Positions 7,297 through 55,011 of a stretch of 64,000 nt of DNA are shown piece after piece. Position numbers and translations under genes: made by a program. Where the stretch lies: the NCBI GenBank assembly GCA_900471815.1, contig UICE01000007.1, positions 1-64,000 of the forward strand, read 5' to 3'. Numbering within the stretch: the first letter of the stretch is position 1; the number at the start of each line of letters is the position of its first letter. Source of the stretch: Hyphomicrobiales bacterium. Lineage in GTDB: Bacteria; Pseudomonadota; Alphaproteobacteria; Rhizobiales; Rhizobiaceae. The notes under the pieces are model-generated. The model searched no databases, was not told the origin of the DNA, and saw nothing but the letters and a program-made list of their open reading frames with translations.

Positions 7297-10200
7297 TTAT
7301 TTTTTCATTTGTTCCTTCAAAGCGAGCAGCTTGGCAAAAGGCGAGTCCATGTCGATTTTAACTGGACGTTCCTCACGCTCGGGACGCTTGGTTGGAGCCT
7401 TATGTTGTCCCTGTGGTTTTCCGCCATGTTTCGCGCCATCCTGTTTAAAGCGCTCATTGCCTGCGGGCTTGCCTTTGCCCCGGAAATGTTCCTTGCGTTC
7501 ACCACGTTCATTCTGCGGCGCAGCCGGGCGGTTGGGCTGGGCAGCTCTCTGCTCAGATTGGCCGTTTCGTGCTTGCCCACCGCGCTGATGATCGCGTTTC
7601 TCGTGATTTCCACGATTATTGCGATTATCGAAACGTGCCTGACGCCACAAGAGAATTGGCTTTGGTGCTTCTTCCGGCACCGCTGGCGTTGCTGTTTCAG
7701 CAGTCGGCTGGGATGGTTTGGCTACAGCTTGCACCACTGGTGCATTTGCAAACCCTGGACCAACCGGTTCTGCAGCAGGCACTGCAGTGTCTTTCGTTGG
7801 TGCAGCACTTGCGACCGCTTCTAGCTCCGCCAATTTGGCAGCAACAATCGCAGGTTCAACGGCCTCCTGACGATAGCCAAGATTTTTGAGGATCTCCTCC
7901 ATATCATCGGCAGTTGCACCGAGGATCGACATCATGGCTGGGATTACCAGAAAGCGTGATCCGTCATAGGCGCCATCGGGACGAGTGCCCGTGCCGGGCT
8001 TCCAGGCCAGCGCAGGACGGATGAGATCCGCCAGACGTTCAAGGATGTCGATGCGGACAGCTCTGCGACCAAGCAATCTATATCCTGCCAGACGATAGAA
8101 TGCGGGATCAAAGCTTGCATCGGTCACCACAGAGGTTCTGCCTGCGGACAATACCTGAACGACGTCGCCATACCCGGGACGGTCCTTGGCATCTTCTTTG
8201 AGCGCCCAGAGCAGCGTCAAGAGACCGGCGGGGGCCGGTTTCAGCAGAGCCGGCAAGAATACGTGATACGCGCCGAAGCGCACGCCGAGACGGCGCAGGG
8301 CTGCTCGGGAGTCCTGATCCAACCCGCGAACTTCTTCTGCAACATCCCGGCGCTGCAAAACACCGAAGTTTTCGACCAGCCGGAAGGCAAGACCTTTCGT
8401 GATTCCAACCAGCGCATCCGCATTGGCAAGATCAACAAGCGGCTTTAACACCGTGTCTATATGGTGGTTGAGAAAGCGATCAACCCGCGCGGCAACCTTG
8501 TCGCGAGCCGGGCCAGTGAGCTGCTCATCAGCCAGCAATACGGCGCGCGGCTTGAGCGCTTGCTCTCCGGATACAACGGAAGCAATAGTCGCACCGATCC
8601 AGCGCAGCGTCCCATCTGACGCCAAAGCAAAATCGCCATTGGCGGATGCCGAAAACCGCTCAGCGCGATTTTCGAACTCTGCCGCCAGCGCTTTTTGCGC
8701 TGCAGCTTTGATCGCCTTGGCGTCCGCTCCATCATCTTGAGCATCCGCAGTGAAACGGAACCCGTCTAATCGTCCAACATGGTGCCCCTCGACAACAACG
8801 TCCCCGGCAGGGCTAATTTCGGCTTCTAGCATTGTATTCTCTCTCAGGCGCCTCATAAGCACGCTTGTCCTGCGGTCTACGAAGCGTTTCGTCAACCGTT
8901 CATGCAGTGCATCGGATAATCTGTCCTCAATTTCACGCGTCTTTTCTTGCCAATGTGCCTGATCTGCCAGCCAACCGGGTCGATGAGACACAAATGTCCA
9001 CGTTCTGATCTGGGCTATACGCCGCGAAAGAGCGTCGATATCGCCATCAATGGAATCAGCCCGCCGAACCTCTTCTGCCATATAATTTTCGTTCACATGA
9101 CCTTTTTCAACAAGATCAGTATATACGGACGCAATGATGTCAGCGTGTTGCGCCGGTGCAATCTTGCGATAATCCGGCAAGGCGCAGGCGTCCCATAAAA
9201 GTGCTACACGTTCGGGCGTATTTGCGAGTGGAGCAATATCGGGATCACGCGAAAGAAACTCCAAAGCTTGCTGGTCAACCGCCGGAAGAGCTCTGGTCAG
9301 ACCATCAATCGGTGCCGGAGTGTCAATGGAGCGCTTCAGCGCATCGAGGCTGGAATAGTCAAAACGAGCACTCCGCCACTGCAAAATCTTCACTGCATCG
9401 AAAGCATGGGATTCAACACGTTGAACAAGCGCTTCGGAGAAACCTGACACATGGCCCGTCACGCCAAATGTTCCGTCACGCAAATGGCGCCCGGCTCGCC
9501 CGGCTATCTGACCGATTTCTGCCGGTGAAAGATCGCGGAACTGATATCCATCAAATTTCCGGTCCTGTGCAAACGCAACGTGGTCCACGTCGAGATTGAG
9601 CCCCATGCCAATGGCATCGGTTGCCACCAGATAGTCCACATCCCCGGACTGATAAAGCTCCACCTGCTTGTTTCTCGTTCGTGGGCTTAGCGTTCCCATG
9701 ACCACCGCAGCGCCACCATTCTGCCGCCTGATCAATTCCGCGATTGAATAGACTTCTTCCGCCGCGAAAGCCACAATCGCCGTGCGCGGTGGCAGGCGGG
9801 TAATCTTTTTAGAACCGGAATAGGCGAGATTGGACAATCTTGGCCGTGTAACCACGGATATGCCCGGCAAAAGCTTCTCTAGAATGCCACGCATCGTTGC
9901 AGCGCCCAGGAGGATTGTTTCCTGACGCCCGCGGAGATGCAGAATGCGATCCGTGAAAATGTGGCCACGCTCAAGATCGTTGGCAAGCTGAACTTCGTCA
10001 ATGGCAACAAAATCCATATCCGTATGGCGCGGCATGGCCTCTACGGTGCAAACTGAATAACGGGCGCCAGGCGGACTGATTTTTTCTTCGCCGGTAATCA
10101 GCGCGACATTGGCAATGCCTGCTCGCTCCACGACACGATTATAAACCTCGCGCGCCAAAAGCCGCAGCGGCAAACCGATCATACCGGATCGGTGCGCGAG

Positions 10201-48644: not shown

Positions 48645-49988
48645 TCACTTGCTTGAGACGTAATCGGATCGGTCAATCCCGTGACGCTGCAGCTTGTCGT
48701 AGAAAGTTTTGCGCGGGATACCGAGCGTCTGGATCGTGGAGCGCACATCCCCGCCATTGGCTGCCAATGCTTGCTGGATAAGCCGCGCCTCATATCGTTC
48801 CATGGCTTGCGGCAAACTTGAACCGTCGCTTTCAATATCTGATTTTGTTGTTTCAATACCATCAAGACCAAGTGCAGCACGTTCGGCAAAATGCACCAGC
48901 TCGCGCACATTTCCGGGCCAGTCATGTTGCATGAGATAGGAGCGCTGCGCAGCTGTGATCTCTGGCACATCTGTTTTGAATCTTGCCGAAGCGCGATGCA
49001 GAAAATGGGTAAACAGAAGCATGATATCATCGCGCCGCTCACGCAGCGGAGGAATTGAAACAGTCACGACATTGAGCCTGTAGAACAAATCCTCGCGAAA
49101 ATTGACGCGCTGGTCGGCGCTCCCAAGGTCAACCTTGGCCGCGGCCACCACGCGCAAATCGACGGGCCGGTGTTCGTTGGTGCCAAGCGGTGTAATTTCC
49201 CGGCTTTCCAAAACGCGTAGAAGTTTTACCTGCGTTGAAAGAGGCATGCTCTCAATCTCATCGAGAAACAAGGTTCCGCCGCTAGAGTGCTCGATGCGGC
49301 CAACACGCTTCTTTTGAGCCCCCGTGAAAGCTCCGGCTTCGTGGCCAAACAATTCACTTTCTATGACTGTTTCCGGCAAAGCCCCGCAGTTCAGCGCAAC
49401 GAAGTTCCCCTGTTTGCGCCTGCTCCATTCATGCAAAAGTCCGGCAACAACCTCTTTCCCCGTCCCTGTTTCACCGGCGATCAATACGTCGACATCGGCA
49501 CCTGCCACATGGCGCAGGGTCTTTCGAAGGTTTTGCATAACGGGCGTTTGACCGATCAGCGGCAGTGATTCATTCGTGTTTTCCACCGCCAAACGCAATT
49601 CGCGGTTCTCCATGACGAGCCGGCGTTTCTCCAATGCTCGCATTATGCTTTGCACAAGGCGATCGGCTGGATAGGGCTTGGCGATAAAATCATAGGCGCC
49701 CTTATGGATCGCCTCGACAGCCATATCGATATCACCATGTCCGGTTATAAGGATGACGGGCAGATCAGAATCCATTTCACGCAAACGGCGAAACAATTCA
49801 AGCCCGTCAATGTGAGGCATCCTCACATCGGTCACGACGACACCCGGAAAGTCCGGCGTCAGGAATCGCAAAGCGAGCATTGCATTGGGAAAGGGCTGCA
49901 CGTTGAAGCCTGCCAGTTCAAGCGTCTGGCAATTTGCAGCACGCAGGTCGTCATCATCTTCAACAAAGGCAATTTGATTTGAATCCAT
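48645..49988 (-). CDS. dctD: C4-dicarboxylate transport response regulator DctD
   Basis: Sigma-54-dependent activator of dctA. Receiver domain with phosphoacceptor D54 (VVVTDVRMP), AAA+ domain with Walker A GETGTGKE and intact GAFTGA loop that contacts sigma-54, and a C-terminal Fis-type helix-turn-helix ([27 protein letters not shown]). 447 residues. It starts 2 bases after dctB ends. Confidence 0.95.
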
Positions 49989-49990
49989 GG

Positions 49991-51853
49991 TCAGACCACC
50001 TTTTTCAGATGCACGGTAAACTCGGTCCCGGCAGAGCTGCTTTCAACCTCGATGCGCCCCCCATACTCCGCAACAATGTCATGGCAGATCACCAGACCAA
50101 GCCCCAGGCCTCGATCCTTGGACGTGTTGAAGGGTGTAAAGAGCATCTGCATGATTGAATCGGGTATTCCAGGACCATTATCAGCAACAATCAATCGCAG
50201 TTCATCTTGGGCAACGGAACAGCGCACGCTGATCTTGCTGGCGGGTCCACCTTCCGTCGCTTCAAGCGCATTTTGCATGAGATTGATCAGAACTTGTTCG
50301 AGGCGGATGCGGTTGCCATAGACCTTCACTTCGGGAGCGGGCATTTCAGTCAGGATTTGTCCGGCACGCTGACGAAATCTGCTTCCGAGAAGCAGCATCG
50401 CACCTTCGATGATATCACTGACACTGACCGGCCCAGAATCCCCCGTGCCTTTGCGGGAAAAGGTCCTGAGTTCGTCGGTGATACTTCCGATGCGTTCCGT
50501 CAGCCCGGCAATAGCCTTCAAATTGTCTTTGGCGGAATCGACCTGATTGCGCCCCAAAAACGTTGCAGCATTATCAGCATAGGATCGAATGGCTGCCACA
50601 GGCTGGTTAATCTCATGCGCGACACCTGCGGTCACCTGACCTAGAATGGCCAGGCGGTTCGCCTGCACAAGCTCCAATTGGACGGACTGGAGTTTTGTTT
50701 CCGTCTTTTGACGTTCTTCCGCCTGCATGACCAGCTCGGCATGCGCCGCACTCAAATCCGCAGTGCGGGCAGCAACACGGCGCTCAAGTTCAACCCTCGC
50801 CACTTCCTGTTCCTGCGCCCGGCGCAATGCCAGCCCGCGCCGGCGAAGAATAAAAGCAGTGAGACCCAGCAAGGGAGCAAGAAAGAGCAGTGTAATCAAC
50901 TGAGCGGTACGGACAGACTCGGTCACCGTTGGTGCGGCAGGCGTCAATGATTGCAATTTCCAACTCGTGGTCGGAACCGAGGTTTGAACCCGTACGAATT
51001 CTCTTCGGGACGGGGCGCCCGGCAACCTGGCTTGAACAATATCCGGCTGCACCGTTGGCATGGGCGGAGAAATATCCAGCGGCTCCAATGGCGCGCCGCC
51101 AAATTGCAGGCTCTCGCGAAGCGGCCCCATTCGCTCGGCGGGGATGACACTTTCTGTCATAAAACGCCAGTCGGGAAAGCTTGTGACCAGCACGATACCG
51201 CGTTGATCAACCACCAAGGTCGGATCGCTGTTGCGGCGCCAGTCCGCTTCGATTTCATCAAACTCCAGTTTGACAACAATGACGCCTAGTGGTCCAGCCG
51301 GGCTATCAATGCGCTTTGAAATATAAAGTCCCGGCCGCTTGCTGACAGTGCCAAGGGCGTAATGTTCTGCGCTGCCATTTCTGATGGCGCGTGTGTAATA
51401 GGGCCGAAAACTGTAATTGGTTCCGACGAAACTGATCGGCTCGTTCCAGTTGCTCGCAGCGATTGCCAGTCCACTTGCATCAAGCAGGTAAATTACAGCA
51501 GATCCGGTGCCACCGATAAGGCTTTCAAATTTATGATTGAGACGTTGGAGCTGGCTCTCGCTGCGAGTGGAAAGCGCACTCATGACATCCCTGTCTTGGG
51601 ACAGGACAAAAGGAACCGCTCTTTGCTTTTCGAGCACGGTGCGCAGGAGAACTGCATTTAATTCAGCTGTGCTTTTCGCACGGTCCATCACGATCTGATA
51701 CCCGCGTTCGCGGCCAATATTGCCCGCCACAAAAAGCGCCGCAAAAATTATGATTACAGCAAAGGTGGCCAGAACAGCCTTGCTGGCCCAACCAGATCGC
51801 GCTGTCGGGGTGAGGATTTCAGAGGCCTTTTGTGGATGATCATCCATGAACAT
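49991..51853 (-). CDS. dctB: C4-dicarboxylate sensor histidine kinase DctB
   Basis: Membrane sensor with two transmembrane helices (about residues 25-45 and 320-340) flanking a large periplasmic PAS-like domain. A coiled-coil follows, then the HisKA H-box [17 protein letters not shown] and an ATPase domain ([29 protein letters not shown]). The frame extends to 51934, but those codons overlap two DctD binding repeats; I choose ATG 51853 (MFMDDHP), with 51847 as alternative. About 620 residues. Confidence 0.93.
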
Positions 51854-51977: not shown

Positions 51978-51992
51978 TGGCACGCCATTTGC
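51978..51992 (+). promoter_or_regulatory. sigma-54 (-24/-12) promoter of dctA
   Basis: TGGCACGCCATTTGC is an exact match to TGGCACG-N4-TTGC. Expected transcript start is near 52004. Confidence 0.93.
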
Positions 51993-52005
51993 ATTCCATG
52001 GCTGC

Positions 52006-52087: not shown

Positions 52088-53422
52088 ATGAGTCCGGTGA
52101 CACTAACCACGGCCAATGCTGGCCTGCAGCCATCAAAAAAGGCTCCGATCTATAGCCATTTATATTTTCAGGTACTTGTCGCAATCGCCATCGGCATCGC
52201 GCTTGGGCATTATTATCCTGACCTTGGAACCAGTATGAAACCGCTTGGCGATGCTTTCATCAAGCTGGTAAAAATGATCATCGCCCCTGTCATTTTTCTG
52301 ACCGTATCCACCGGCATTGCCGGGATGAGCGATCTTAAGAAAGTCGGCCGCGTTGCTGGCAAGGCCATGATCTACTTTCTGACGTTTTCGACGCTTGCCC
52401 TGATCGTCGGACTGGTCGTTGCCAATGTTGTTCAACCCGGTGCAGGCATGAACATTGATCCTGCCTCGCTTGATCCAAAAGCGGTTGCAACCTACACGCA
52501 GCAGGCGCATGAGCAGAGCATCATTGGATTCCTGAACAATATCATTCCGACCACTATCGTCGGCGCTTTCGCATCCGGCGATATTCTGCAGGTGCTTTTC
52601 TTCTCGGTGCTGTTTGGTCTTTCGCTCGCCATGGTCGGTGAGAAAGCCGAGCCGGTCACCAACTTTCTTTTAACGCTTTCGGCACCGATCTTCAAACTCG
52701 TTGCCATCTTGATGAAGGCAGCCCCCATTGGCGCATTCGGAGCAATGGCGTTCACCATCGGGAAATATGGCATCGGGTCTGTCGCCAATTTGATCATGTT
52801 GATCGGCACATTCTATTTGACATCACTCCTGTTCGTGCTTGTCATTCTCGGCGCGGTTGCCTGGTATAATGGTTTTTCCATTTTGGCTCTGATCCGCTAC
52901 ATCAAGGAAGAGCTCTTGCTGGTGCTTGGTACCAGCTCTTCGGAAGCAGCGCTGCCAACCCTTATGGCCAAGATGGAAAAGGCGGGTTGCAAGAAATCCG
53001 TGGTCGGCCTCGTTATCCCGACCGGCTATTCTTTCAATCTGGACGGCACAAACATTTATATGACCCTGGCGGCCCTGTTCATTGCTCAAGCAACAAACAT
53101 CCATTTGAGCATGTCGGATCAAATTCTGCTTTTGCTCGTCGCCATGCTGAGTTCCAAAGGCGCTGCCGGTATCACCGGTGCCGGCTTTATTACCCTTGCG
53201 GCGACGCTTTCTGTTGTGCCGGCGGTTCCCGTTGCGGGCATGGCGCTAATCCTGGGTATTGATCGCTTCATGTCAGAATGCCGTGCCTTGACCAACCTGG
53301 TTGGCAATGCCGTTGCAACGATTGTCGTAGCGCGTTGGGAAGGCGAGCTCGACAAAGACAAACTGGCCCAGGCGCTTAACGGCGAACTGGCCGAAGAAGA
53401 AGCACTGGTCTTGGCAAACTGA
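52088..53422 (+). CDS. dctA: C4-dicarboxylate:cation symporter DctA
   Basis: Inner-membrane symporter for succinate, fumarate and malate, 444 residues, glutamate-transporter fold. Visible motifs are [20 protein letters not shown], the serine-rich [17 protein letters not shown] of hairpin 1, and [28 protein letters not shown] lies four bases before ATG 52088; the frame opens at a TTG 52049, which lies upstream of this good ribosome site. It is driven by sigma-54 and DctD. Confidence 0.96.
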
Positions 53423-53458: not shown

Positions 53459-53494
53459 CCTGCGGTGTGCCATTTCCTTTGGTGTCGCCGCAGG
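53459..53494 (+). promoter_or_regulatory. hairpin between dctA and the lyase gene
   Basis: CCTGCGG (53459-53465) pairs with CCGCAGG (53488-53494), with further inner pairing TGCCA / TGG. It ends 5 bases before GGGAGG of the lyase gene. It could be a weak terminator with partial read-through, or an mRNA-stability element. Confidence 0.4.
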
Positions 53495-53508
53495 CGCTGG
53501 GAGGTATC

Positions 53509-55011
53509 ATGAAAACACTTCTTTATGCACTGACATTGGTTGCGAGTGTTCATAGCGGCGTTGCAATCGCTGCAGAACAACCACCGAGGGACGAATTCTT
53601 CTGGTTGGGCATGATCAACAAGGCGACGATCATTATCAATTCCGACGAAGGATTGCTCGACAAAGACCTCACGCCAAAGATCGCCGCCGGGCTGAAGAAG
53701 GTCCTTGCAGATGGGGCTCAACCTGGAGCAAAGCGGCCCTCAACCGTAATCGCATTTGAGCCTTTGCTCATTGAAGCAGCAGGCCCGGAGGTCACGTTAA
53801 TCCATGCCGGGCGTTCAAGCCAGGATATGCATTCGACCTACAGGGCCGCCATCATGCGGGATGATCTACTAAGACTTGCACACCAGCTGGATAAAACAAC
53901 AAGCGCCCTCGTTGATCTTGCAGAGCGCCATGTCGATACGATCGTACCCAACTATACCAACGGCGTCGCGGCGCAACCCAATAGTTTCGGACACTACCTG
54001 CTTGGCCATGCAGCAGGTCTGGAGCGAGATGCTCAGCGTATCAGGGAAGCCTATGCCCGTGTTGACAGAAGCCCGATGGGAACCACTGTACTGAACGGCA
54101 CAAGCTGGCCACTCAATCGAACTCGAATGGCGGATTATCTCGGCTTCAGTGGCATCGTTGACAATGCATATGACGCCTCACAAATATCCCCGGTAGATGA
54201 ACCGGTCGAAGTTGGAGCGATCGTTACGAGTATCGCACTCCATACCGGACAGTTCATTGAAGATATCATGACGCAATATGCGCAGCCCCGCCCGTGGATA
54301 TTGCTGCAAACAGGGGGAGGCAACACATATGTGTCCAGCGCGATGCCCCAGAAGCGCAATCCTGGAATTCTCAATTCCACAAGGCAAGCTGCTTCCACGG
54401 CAGTGACATTGGCTATGGGACCCATTATCCAAGCGCACAACATTACGCCCGGCATGCCGGATGCAAAAGACGAGGATGCCAACACAGAAATTGTCGAAAG
54501 CGCGATCAAAGCGCTGGAAGGCTGGGAAAAAATAATCGGCTCACTCGTGATCGACCCGAACCGTTCCCTTGAAGAGCTGAACAGCGACTGGACTGCTTCG
54601 CAAGAACTCGCGGATGTTTTGATGCGCAAATATAAACTGCCTTTCCGCGTCGGGCATCACTTTGCGTCCGAGATCGTGGATTTTGCCAAATCACAAAATA
54701 TCAAGCCACTCGACTTCCCCTATGCCGATGCGCAGCGAATCTACAAGGAAGCTGTCAAGGGATCGAGCTTTTCAGACCAGCTCCCTATGAACGAGGAAGA
54801 GTTTCGAGCAACGCTCGACCCAGTCGCAATCGTTAGGAATCGAGCCACTAGCGGCGGGCCGCAGCCCAAGGAAATGGCGCGGATGATCAAAACGGCCAAA
54901 GAAAAAATCGCCTCGCAAGAAGCTTGGGTCGCAGACAGACGGCGCGTCGTAACCACAGCGCTTAAACGGCTGGATGAGGATTTCGACAAGCTTTCCACAA
55001 GCCCAAATTAA
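53509..55011 (+). CDS. exported fumarate-lyase superfamily enzyme, argininosuccinate-lyase-like
   Basis: 500 residues in the aspartase/fumarase superfamily. The signature loop SSAMPQKRNPG (S276, S277) is intact. Segment GRSSQD (101-106) stands where ASL has GRSRND, and GTSWPLNRTRMADYLGF matches the ASL region. The usual TH of the HxxxAQP region is T150-N151 (YTNGVAAQP), so the expected His is missing. The first 21 residues form a Sec signal peptide ending AIA, unusual for this family, so the protein should act in the periplasm. GGGAGG supports ATG 53509. It lies 86 bases after dctA in the same direction. Cytosolic ASL elsewhere would be expected for arginine synthesis. A relative is EDDS lyase of Chelativorans; the substrate is unknown. 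Confidence 0.82.
   Translation: MKTLLYALTLVASVHSGVAIAAEQPPRDEFFWLGMINKATIIINSDEGLLDKDLTPKIAAGLKKVLADGAQPGAKRPSTVIAFEPLLIEAAGPEVTLIHAGRSSQDMHSTYRAAIMRDDLLRLAHQLDKTTSALVDLAERHVDTIVPNYTNGVAAQPNSFGHYLLGHAAGLERDAQRIREAYARVDRSPMGTTVLNGTSWPLNRTRMADYLGFSGIVDNAYDASQISPVDEPVEVGAIVTSIALHTGQFIEDIMTQYAQPRPWILLQTGGGNTYVSSAMPQKRNPGILNSTRQAASTAVTLAMGPIIQAHNITPGMPDAKDEDANTEIVESAIKALEGWEKIIGSLVIDPNRSLEELNSDWTASQELADVLMRKYKLPFRVGHHFASEIVDFAKSQNIKPLDFPYADAQRIYKEAVKGSSFSDQLPMNEEEFRATLDPVAIVRNRATSGGPQPKEMARMIKTAKEKIASQEAWVADRRRVVTTALKRLDEDFDKLSTSPN

Follow-up and report, generated by a model that had tools for sequence, protein, structure and literature searches.

Enzymes of the aspartase/fumarase superfamily are normally cytosolic. 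In enteric bacteria, the ammonia-lyase AspA, which yields fumarate, is coupled to the C4-dicarboxylate carrier DcuB in fumarate respiration; the system considered here would resemble this pair in linking a fumarate-giving lyase to such a carrier, and differs from it in two respects: its lyase is a member of the argininosuccinate lyase (ASL) branch of the superfamily and, in most lineages, a predicted exported protein. The described enzymes with which this protein is best compared are argininosuccinate lyase itself (ArgH, TIGR00838), the EDDS lyase of Chelativorans BNC1 (PDB 6g3d-6g3i), a C-N lyase that gives fumarate, and XcbC, which acts at the 2-phosphosulfolactate step of bacterial coenzyme M synthesis. 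With regard to location, an excerpt of a study of Achromobacter xylosoxidans lists three "argininosuccinate lyases" (A0A0D6FWL1, A0A0D6I447 and A0A0D6IQY6) as periplasm-expressed predicted Tat substrates and gives no specific function for them (PMC11533796). Their likeness to the present protein is one of name and location, and the predicted export route is Tat there as against Sec here. Apart from this paper, the titles and abstract openings that our searches of open-licence PMC articles retrieved contain no description of an exported or periplasmic argininosuccinate lyase, and they describe no pairing of an argininosuccinate lyase with DctA or DcuC. An earlier note on this DNA had proposed a small periplasmic scavenging system that its author did not recognize as described; judging from the excerpt, the Achromobacter proteins precede it as periplasmic "argininosuccinate lyases", and the pairing with DctA is undescribed in the literature searched. 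An excerpt on chicken-gut Sutterella reports a life on aspartate and fumarate metabolism and the expression of an argininosuccinate lyase (PMC11204068), which may or may not be a member of the family analyzed below.

The stretch of DNA that we analyzed (hereafter, the window) comprises 64,000 nucleotides and is part of contig 8 of a 4.6-Mb genome (G000). The gene of interest and its salient elements are as follows.

53509..55011, plus strand: predicted exported lyase of the aspartase/fumarase superfamily, 500 amino acids (open reading frame; Pfam, NCBIfam and PDB matches).
53509..53571, plus strand: predicted signal peptide of Sec type, the likely cleavage site following AIA (residue 21) or residue 22 (leader rule, relatives).
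53803..53838, plus strand: loop C1, HAGRSSQDMHST, residues 99-110, with RSSQD where ArgH has RSRND (alignment).
53950..53979, plus strand: loop C2, NYTNGVAAQP, residues 148-157, with Asn151 in place of the histidine of YTHLQ (alignment).
54334..54366, plus strand: catalytic loop C3, SSAMPQKRNPG, residues 276-286, with the catalytic serine, Lys282 and Asn284 kept and the ArgH aspartate replaced by Gly286 (alignment).

The reading frame is intact and its ATG at 53509 is preceded by a GGAGG ribosome-binding site (53500-53504) and matches the start in the closest relative that carries the lyase, Phyllobacterium sp. YR531, whose protein shares 85% identity and which very probably belongs to the genus of G000; the alternative GTG start at 53467 was accordingly rejected. 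Compared with the YR531 ortholog, the mature part of the protein evolves under strong purifying selection (omega of about 0.04, with dS near saturation). A phage origin of the gene was rejected given that the protein has no PHROGs match. The protein scores above the Pfam gathering thresholds for Lyase_1 (100.5 bits, cut-off 27) and ASL_C2 (37.9 bits, cut-off 27.3) and has the catalytic serine within an SSxMPxKxN loop, all features of the ASL branch. It shares with ArgH both domains, the SSxMPQKxN loop and the catalytic Ser, Lys and Asn; unlike ArgH, it is predicted to be exported, the active-site His, Asn and Asp are replaced, and it falls below the family cut-off. Indeed, in the NCBIfam scan no equivalog cut-off was passed, the top model being argH (TIGR00838) with 193 bits against a cut-off of 279.5. 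The same genome encodes an ArgH-like protein of its own on contig C16, which is only 25.8% identical to the lyase; a second gene of this genome (C8:489283-490125, L004) encodes an ArgH-like lyase whose catalytic loop reads KKNCD. Among PDB sequences, the best two matches are 6rx8 (E = 1.7e-41) and 6g3d (E = 3e-41), both of which carry the PDB name argininosuccinate lyase; 6G3H, which has the same sequence as 6g3d, is called EDDS lyase in an excerpt of PMC12363623. The EDDS lyase is thus like the present protein in being among its two best PDB matches and in lacking the ArgH histidine (Gln159), and unlike it in that the two are 26% identical and five of the six substrate-proximal residues of the EDDS lyase are replaced. 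XcbC also lacks this histidine (Tyr in Xaut_5068, a protein labeled XcbC by virtue of its position beside phosphosulfolactate synthase), is likewise 26% identical and is separated by score: the model NF052535 gives 183 bits, far under its cut-off of 575. An XcbC-like phosphate elimination was rejected on the basis of this cut-off together with the residue misfit.

The leader of the lyase, MKTLLYALTLVASVHSGVAIA, with A following the cut, has a single Lys and a hydrophobic core whose best 12-residue stretch averages 1.97 on the Kyte-Doolittle scale, and it ends in AIA. Leaders were scored with a single, uncalibrated home-made rule that uses sequence only, was applied to those matches for which the locus sequence had been retrieved, and also flags three non-family reference rows taken stop-to-stop (ref_L002, ref_L022 and ref_L026). 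The set used for leaders and active sites consisted of 101 proteins, obtained from 118 by dropping rows with identical last 380 residues. By this rule, a leader is found in all 66 rows with at least 54% identity to the lyase, the window included; in none of the 11 rows at 47-54% identity, which are the Sutterellaceae-type copies discussed below; in 10 of the 11 rows at 38-47% identity, the eleventh (L125) having a visible leader that scores below the cut-off; and in none of the 13 rows at 34-37% identity. Among five further rows at 62-68% identity that were scored separately (L177, L178, L179, L195 and L196), two pass; L177, L179 and L196 fail from the ATG picked, and a GTG 13 codons upstream supplies a leader in each, adding a basic, hydrophobic stretch (RKTRIAGLGLCL in L177 and L179, RKTRIAGLGVCL in L196) comparable to that of the passing relative L178. 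Altogether, at 54% identity or above and with the window counted, 68 of 71 rows have a leader by the rule and the remaining three acquire one via the upstream GTG. Over 65 rows, the leaders show a median identity of only 24% to that of the window, compared with 70% for the mature part, as expected of signal peptides; because leaders are present family-wide while their sequences diverge, a chance leader was rejected. A positively charged start, a hydrophobic core, an AxA-type end and retention in orthologs, as judged by the home-made rule, are thus all observed, and they indicate that the lyase is almost certainly exported to the periplasm and that its export is conserved in the family. This agrees with the earlier note, which had described a Sec signal peptide ending in AIA and had named the absence of this peptide, together with that of dctA linkage, from all close homologs as a result that would speak against its proposal.

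Examination of the active site indicates that the protein is very probably not an argininosuccinate lyase. The changes relative to ArgH are YTHLQ to YTNGV, RND to SQD and KNPD to RNPG, and the family-wide ones include His to Asn151, Asn to Gln105 and Asp to Gly286; these three residues are present throughout the rows with at least 47% identity. Retained are Ser276/277, Met279, Pro280, Gln281, Lys282, Asn284 and Pro285. Across 26 compared positions, 64 of the 66 rows of the exported core agree completely, and the same 26-position string recurs in 7 of the 11 Sutterellaceae-type rows that lack a leader; among the more distant exported members, residue 286 varies (Gly, Ser, Thr or Tyr). The substrate-proximal residues of the EDDS lyase that were chosen for mutagenesis are, in the excerpt of PMC12363623, R112, N113, Q159, N288, D290 and Y320. 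Only N288 is kept, as N284; R112, N113, Q159 and D290 correspond to S104, Q105, N151 and G286, and Y320 to M316, the last assignment being uncertain given that the alignment near residues 316-320 is ambiguous by two columns. Since the Ser, Lys and Asn are kept and the pocket residues are changed, the chemistry of the superfamily is probably preserved, and the substrate pocket probably differs from those of both ArgH and EDDS lyase. Argininosuccinate, which the earlier note had suggested as a substrate, and EDDS, of a type that it had listed for testing, are unlikely: five of the six EDDS-lyase residues have been replaced, as have the His, Asn and Asp specific to ArgH. The Asn that gives way to Gln105 is presumably a succinyl-binding residue of ArgH, and this change implies that the product need not be fumarate. 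By sequence, the lyase and its relatives constitute an undescribed subfamily marked by the YTNGV and SSxMPQKxNPG signatures. The plasmid-borne relatives are annotated as "argininosuccinate lyase" (several) or "lyase family protein"; a bounded exported subfamily with a different active site suggests that the argininosuccinate lyase labels on genes of this family are probably wrong.

A contig search of the genome collection yielded 13 loci with relatives; the lyase was detected in 4 of 20 genomes of the same genus (E = 1e-60), 8 of 297 of the same family and 5 of 398 in a phylum sample (1e-80), as well as in 47 of 398 genomes of the family of G444 (1e-60), 32 of 300 of the order of G444 and 11 of 200 of the family of G582; these genus, family, order and phylum samples overlap. 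Plasmids contributed 17 records at 1e-40, of which 14 share 60-80% identity with the lyase. At the permissive threshold of 1e-30, 183 of 199 genomes of the same order give a match, and, besides G000 and G112 (41%), the matches listed are approximately 26-33% identical, that is, at the level of ArgH-like proteins. Reference loci L028 and L063 were dropped for want of a usable reading frame. In a quick tree of 95 proteins, from which 18 near-copies and 5 reference rows had been removed by hand, the family clusters as a single group (SH-aLRT 98), distinct from ArgH, from EDDS lyase and from the leaderless proteins at 34-37% identity. The leader trait requires three changes on this tree. The leaderless Sutterellaceae-type copies sit among exported members, which suggests, on an unrooted tree with long branches, that they have lost the leader. 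Gene calls near most loci are our own and were made with an amino-acid-composition score; some start codons and neighbors are wrong. L122 is 73% identical over residues 9-330 and 57% overall, which may reflect a frame error near its end. The separate leaderless group (L147-L159, 34-37% identity) keeps the histidine (THGV) and has Ala at position 286 and Arg at position 320; one of its members, L216, is flanked by TctC-cluster genes.

The genomic context of the gene in the window includes a C4-dicarboxylate uptake system, with the following features upstream of the lyase.

52088..53422, plus strand: dctA, C4-dicarboxylate symporter (NF002461, 713 bits, cut-off 513; PF00375).
51978..51993, plus strand: TGGCAC-N5-TTGCA upstream of dctA, a predicted sigma-54-type -24/-12 site (match to the consensus).
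49991..51847, minus strand: gene for a sensor histidine kinase, probably dctB, read divergently from dctA and with 51934 as an alternative start (general kinase models).
48645..49988, minus strand: NtrC-type sigma-54 response regulator, probably dctD (NtrC/AtoC-type models).
53459..53494, plus strand: predicted RNA hairpin without a T-run in the gap between dctA and the lyase (fold z of -2.6).

The kinase matches only general histidine kinase models and the regulator NtrC/AtoC-type models, none listed over its cut-off, and both dct names are given by position. As the earlier note had stated, the lyase follows the end of dctA at 53422 by 86 bp on the same strand. The same strand, the short gap and the hairpin without a T-run between the genes are consistent with a common operon, and we infer that the two genes are co-transcribed. 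The hairpin ends 5 nt before the ribosome-binding site of the lyase, and in its counterpart at the same place in YR531 two base pairs appear, by inspection, to have changed on both sides. The hairpin could serve in RNA processing or stability, or act as an attenuator. A search of the genus detected dctA in 19 of 20 genomes, and all 19 genes have a TGGCAC-N5-TTGC(A/T) site upstream. The order dctA-lyase, however, is confined to the window and YR531, two of the four lyase-bearing genomes among these 20. In YR531 (L007), the lyase is followed by one MFS gene and an FGGY kinase gene (Pfam). Behind the other 17 dctA genes, a GC-rich inverted repeat lies within 90 bp; its arms match exactly over 8-12 bases in 15 cases and, as judged by eye, imperfectly in L072 and L074. 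Next comes a convergent reading frame, which by eye starts sugar-kinase-like in 16 of 17 (L069-L085) and whose counterpart in YR531 is the FGGY kinase gene; these 17 include G206 and G212, where the lyase is located elsewhere in the genome. The usual repeat is absent in the window and in YR531, where the different hairpin without a T-run is found instead. It therefore looks like the lyase gene was inserted behind dctA and thereby came under the dctA promoter. Across the family, this linkage is not retained: among 84 clustered loci, DctA occurs only at the window and YR531 (the latter counted twice). The linkage with dctA put forward in the earlier note is accordingly real in two genomes and is not a feature of the family.

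Carboxylate carriers of other types accompany the lyase elsewhere. The most consistent case involves loci that we call Sutterellaceae-type (a label of convenience: the names Mesosutterella or Sutterella apply to L014 and L017-L019, L015 and L016 come from metagenome-assembled genomes named Burkholderiaceae, and the rest belong to family f145). A DcuC gene lies within the stretch examined at all 13 leaderless loci of this type, and at 11 it is the immediate same-strand neighbor of the lyase (L015, L016 in part, L018, L019, L204-L208, L217 and L218); at L014 and L017, a LysR gene or more intervenes. Leader-bearing copies of the same type (L201, L202, L203 and L219) have no DcuC nearby in any of the four cases, and both kinds of copy coexist in G1543, G1463 and G1615. 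Such a split within single genomes amounts to a natural experiment of unusual clarity. The four DcuC proteins that were scanned give 301-370 bits (cut-off 100). Each of six Sutterellaceae-type genomes has 5-11 matches to PF03606, including a few that are partial or score below the cut-off; by our estimate, adjacency to one such gene by chance would be expected at roughly 1% per locus, for loci that are related, in part near-copies, and of one lineage. L217:5744-8511 contains a 38%-identical leaderless lyase followed directly by a PF03606 transporter, and the pairing with DcuC may thus predate the group at about 50% identity or have arisen twice. In the family to which the window itself belongs, an exported copy (L191, 67% identical) has TctB-TctA (7811-9900) directly upstream on the same strand, at 89 bp (TctA 539.8 bits, cut-off 28.9). 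TctA-family proteins carry tricarboxylates as well as dicarboxylates.

A Pfam scan covered the 117 nearest neighbors of at least 100 amino acids at 69 leader-bearing loci and matched 209 families; among the best 25 of these, the most frequent were short-chain dehydrogenases (5), TctC (4), MFS (4) and porins (4). No operon partner conserved enough to point to the substrate appears among these 117. Carboxylate-carrier genes adjoin at least 7 of the 69 loci: DctA (the window and L007), TctA (L191), TctC (L200, L211 and L212) and DctP (L197, divergent from the lyase and 590 bp away). This is a lower bound, given that 21 of the 138 neighbor places, being short reading frames or stretch ends, fell outside the scan and that the best 25 of the 209 families were considered; within the part scanned, 62 loci lack a neighboring SDF, TctA, TctC or DctP gene. 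Some Burkholderiales have very large numbers of TctC receptors, whose presence here may thus be due to chance. Thus, the link to carboxylate transport drawn in the earlier note recurs with DcuC in one lineage and with TctB-TctA in one genome, whereas a dctA system dedicated to the lyase is not a family feature.

From the export signal, the distinct subfamily, the active-site changes, the local gene order and the DcuC pairing, all read from the sequences, we infer the activity, product and substrate class of the lyase as follows, with a probability that we put at about one half. The protein would be a periplasmic C-X lyase that splits a substituted succinate outside the inner membrane by serine-based beta-elimination, giving fumarate or a closely similar acid and a leaving group that needs no histidine for its protonation. 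In the window genome and in YR531, the gene would have moved in behind dctA, replacing the usual downstream hairpin, so that it is probably transcribed from the sigma-54 (DctBD-type) promoter of dctA, and DctA would import the acid released. Elsewhere, the exported lyase would mostly stand alone and depend on the uptake systems that the cell already has; in Sutterellaceae-type gut bacteria, the leaderless copies would stay inside and work with DcuC. That a nutrient is split in the periplasm by this subfamily is probable, and a C4 acid is a plausible product; a substituted succinate is the natural guess for the substrate by analogy with the superfamily and from the carrier neighbors, and a product other than a C4 acid is also possible. 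That exported and leaderless members share a near-invariant active site counts in favor of the C4-acid reading, as does a flavocytochrome-c-type reductase gene beside the exported copy of L201; against it, the dctA linkage represents a single lineage of two genomes, the DcuC linkage a second one with loci that are not independent, and TctA a single genome. The superfamily itself is well known; what appears to be new is an unstudied exported subfamily that switches compartment, and the carrier linkages provide a short list of its possible products. A broader and more tentative proposal is that the family as a whole swaps compartments, being exported where importers like DctA serve it and leaderless inside the cell with DcuC, and that it serves some natural substituted succinate common to soil, plant and gut bacteria; DcuC would then import the substrate or carry succinate out, and the released C4 acid would feed growth or fumarate respiration.

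The best surviving alternative, doubtful in our view, is that the exported enzyme makes a non-C4 product, in a detoxifying or cycloisomerase-like reaction, with the dctA site a chance landing and the DcuC pairing specific to one lineage. Most of the scanned exported members indeed have no carboxylate carrier next door, several members reside on plasmids or second replicons, where the surroundings are not conserved, five of the six positions close to the substrate in EDDS lyase are changed, and the superfamily extends to non-C4 reactions, those of XcbC and 3-carboxymuconate cycloisomerase among them. The separate placements beside three carrier families, DctA, DcuC and TctA, and the association of DcuC with the leaderless but not the leader-bearing copies of the same genomes count against it. 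Operation in the synthetic direction, whereby an amine or thiol would be added to fumarate in the periplasm, for example to make a chelator or to cap a toxic amine, appears improbable, inasmuch as fumarate is normally scarce in the periplasm and the nearest neighbors include no recurrent chelator or biosynthesis family; excerpts of two papers do describe such use of the EDDS lyase in synthesis (PMC12363623, PMC10792612). Still less credible is an ordinary argininosuccinate lyase exported to scavenge argininosuccinate: argH is the best-scoring NCBIfam model and several plasmid relatives carry that annotation, but the score lies well under the model's cut-off, the three ArgH residues are replaced in all rows with at least 47% identity, and the genome already has its own ArgH-like gene. 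Finally, a non-catalytic periplasmic partner that tunes sensing by DctB or DctA might be imagined from the position of the gene next to dctA and near the divergent kinase gene, and is highly improbable given the near-invariant catalytic Ser, Lys and Asn and the location of most relatives away from dctA.

Several further genes were noticed around exported copies. Next to the exported lyase of L201 is a gene for a flavocytochrome-c-type protein (L201:8045-9574; 440 bits, cut-off 285), and L202:5567-8652 has two tandem FAD flavocytochrome-c-type genes near its exported lyase, the L201 protein being the one scanned; the proteins of both loci have export-like leaders, and periplasmic fumarate respiration is a possible role for them. 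The same two loci contain, upstream of the exported lyase, an adenylosuccinate-lyase-type gene (Lyase_1 and ADSL_C; L201:189-1235 and L202:3155-4531), which is several genes away from the lyase in L201 and adjacent to it in L202. At two distant exported lyases (41% identity), a porin gene lies 2-9 bp upstream (L212:7644-8693 and L213:7803-8768), and in L212 a gene for a TctC-type receptor is convergent, 25 bp away.
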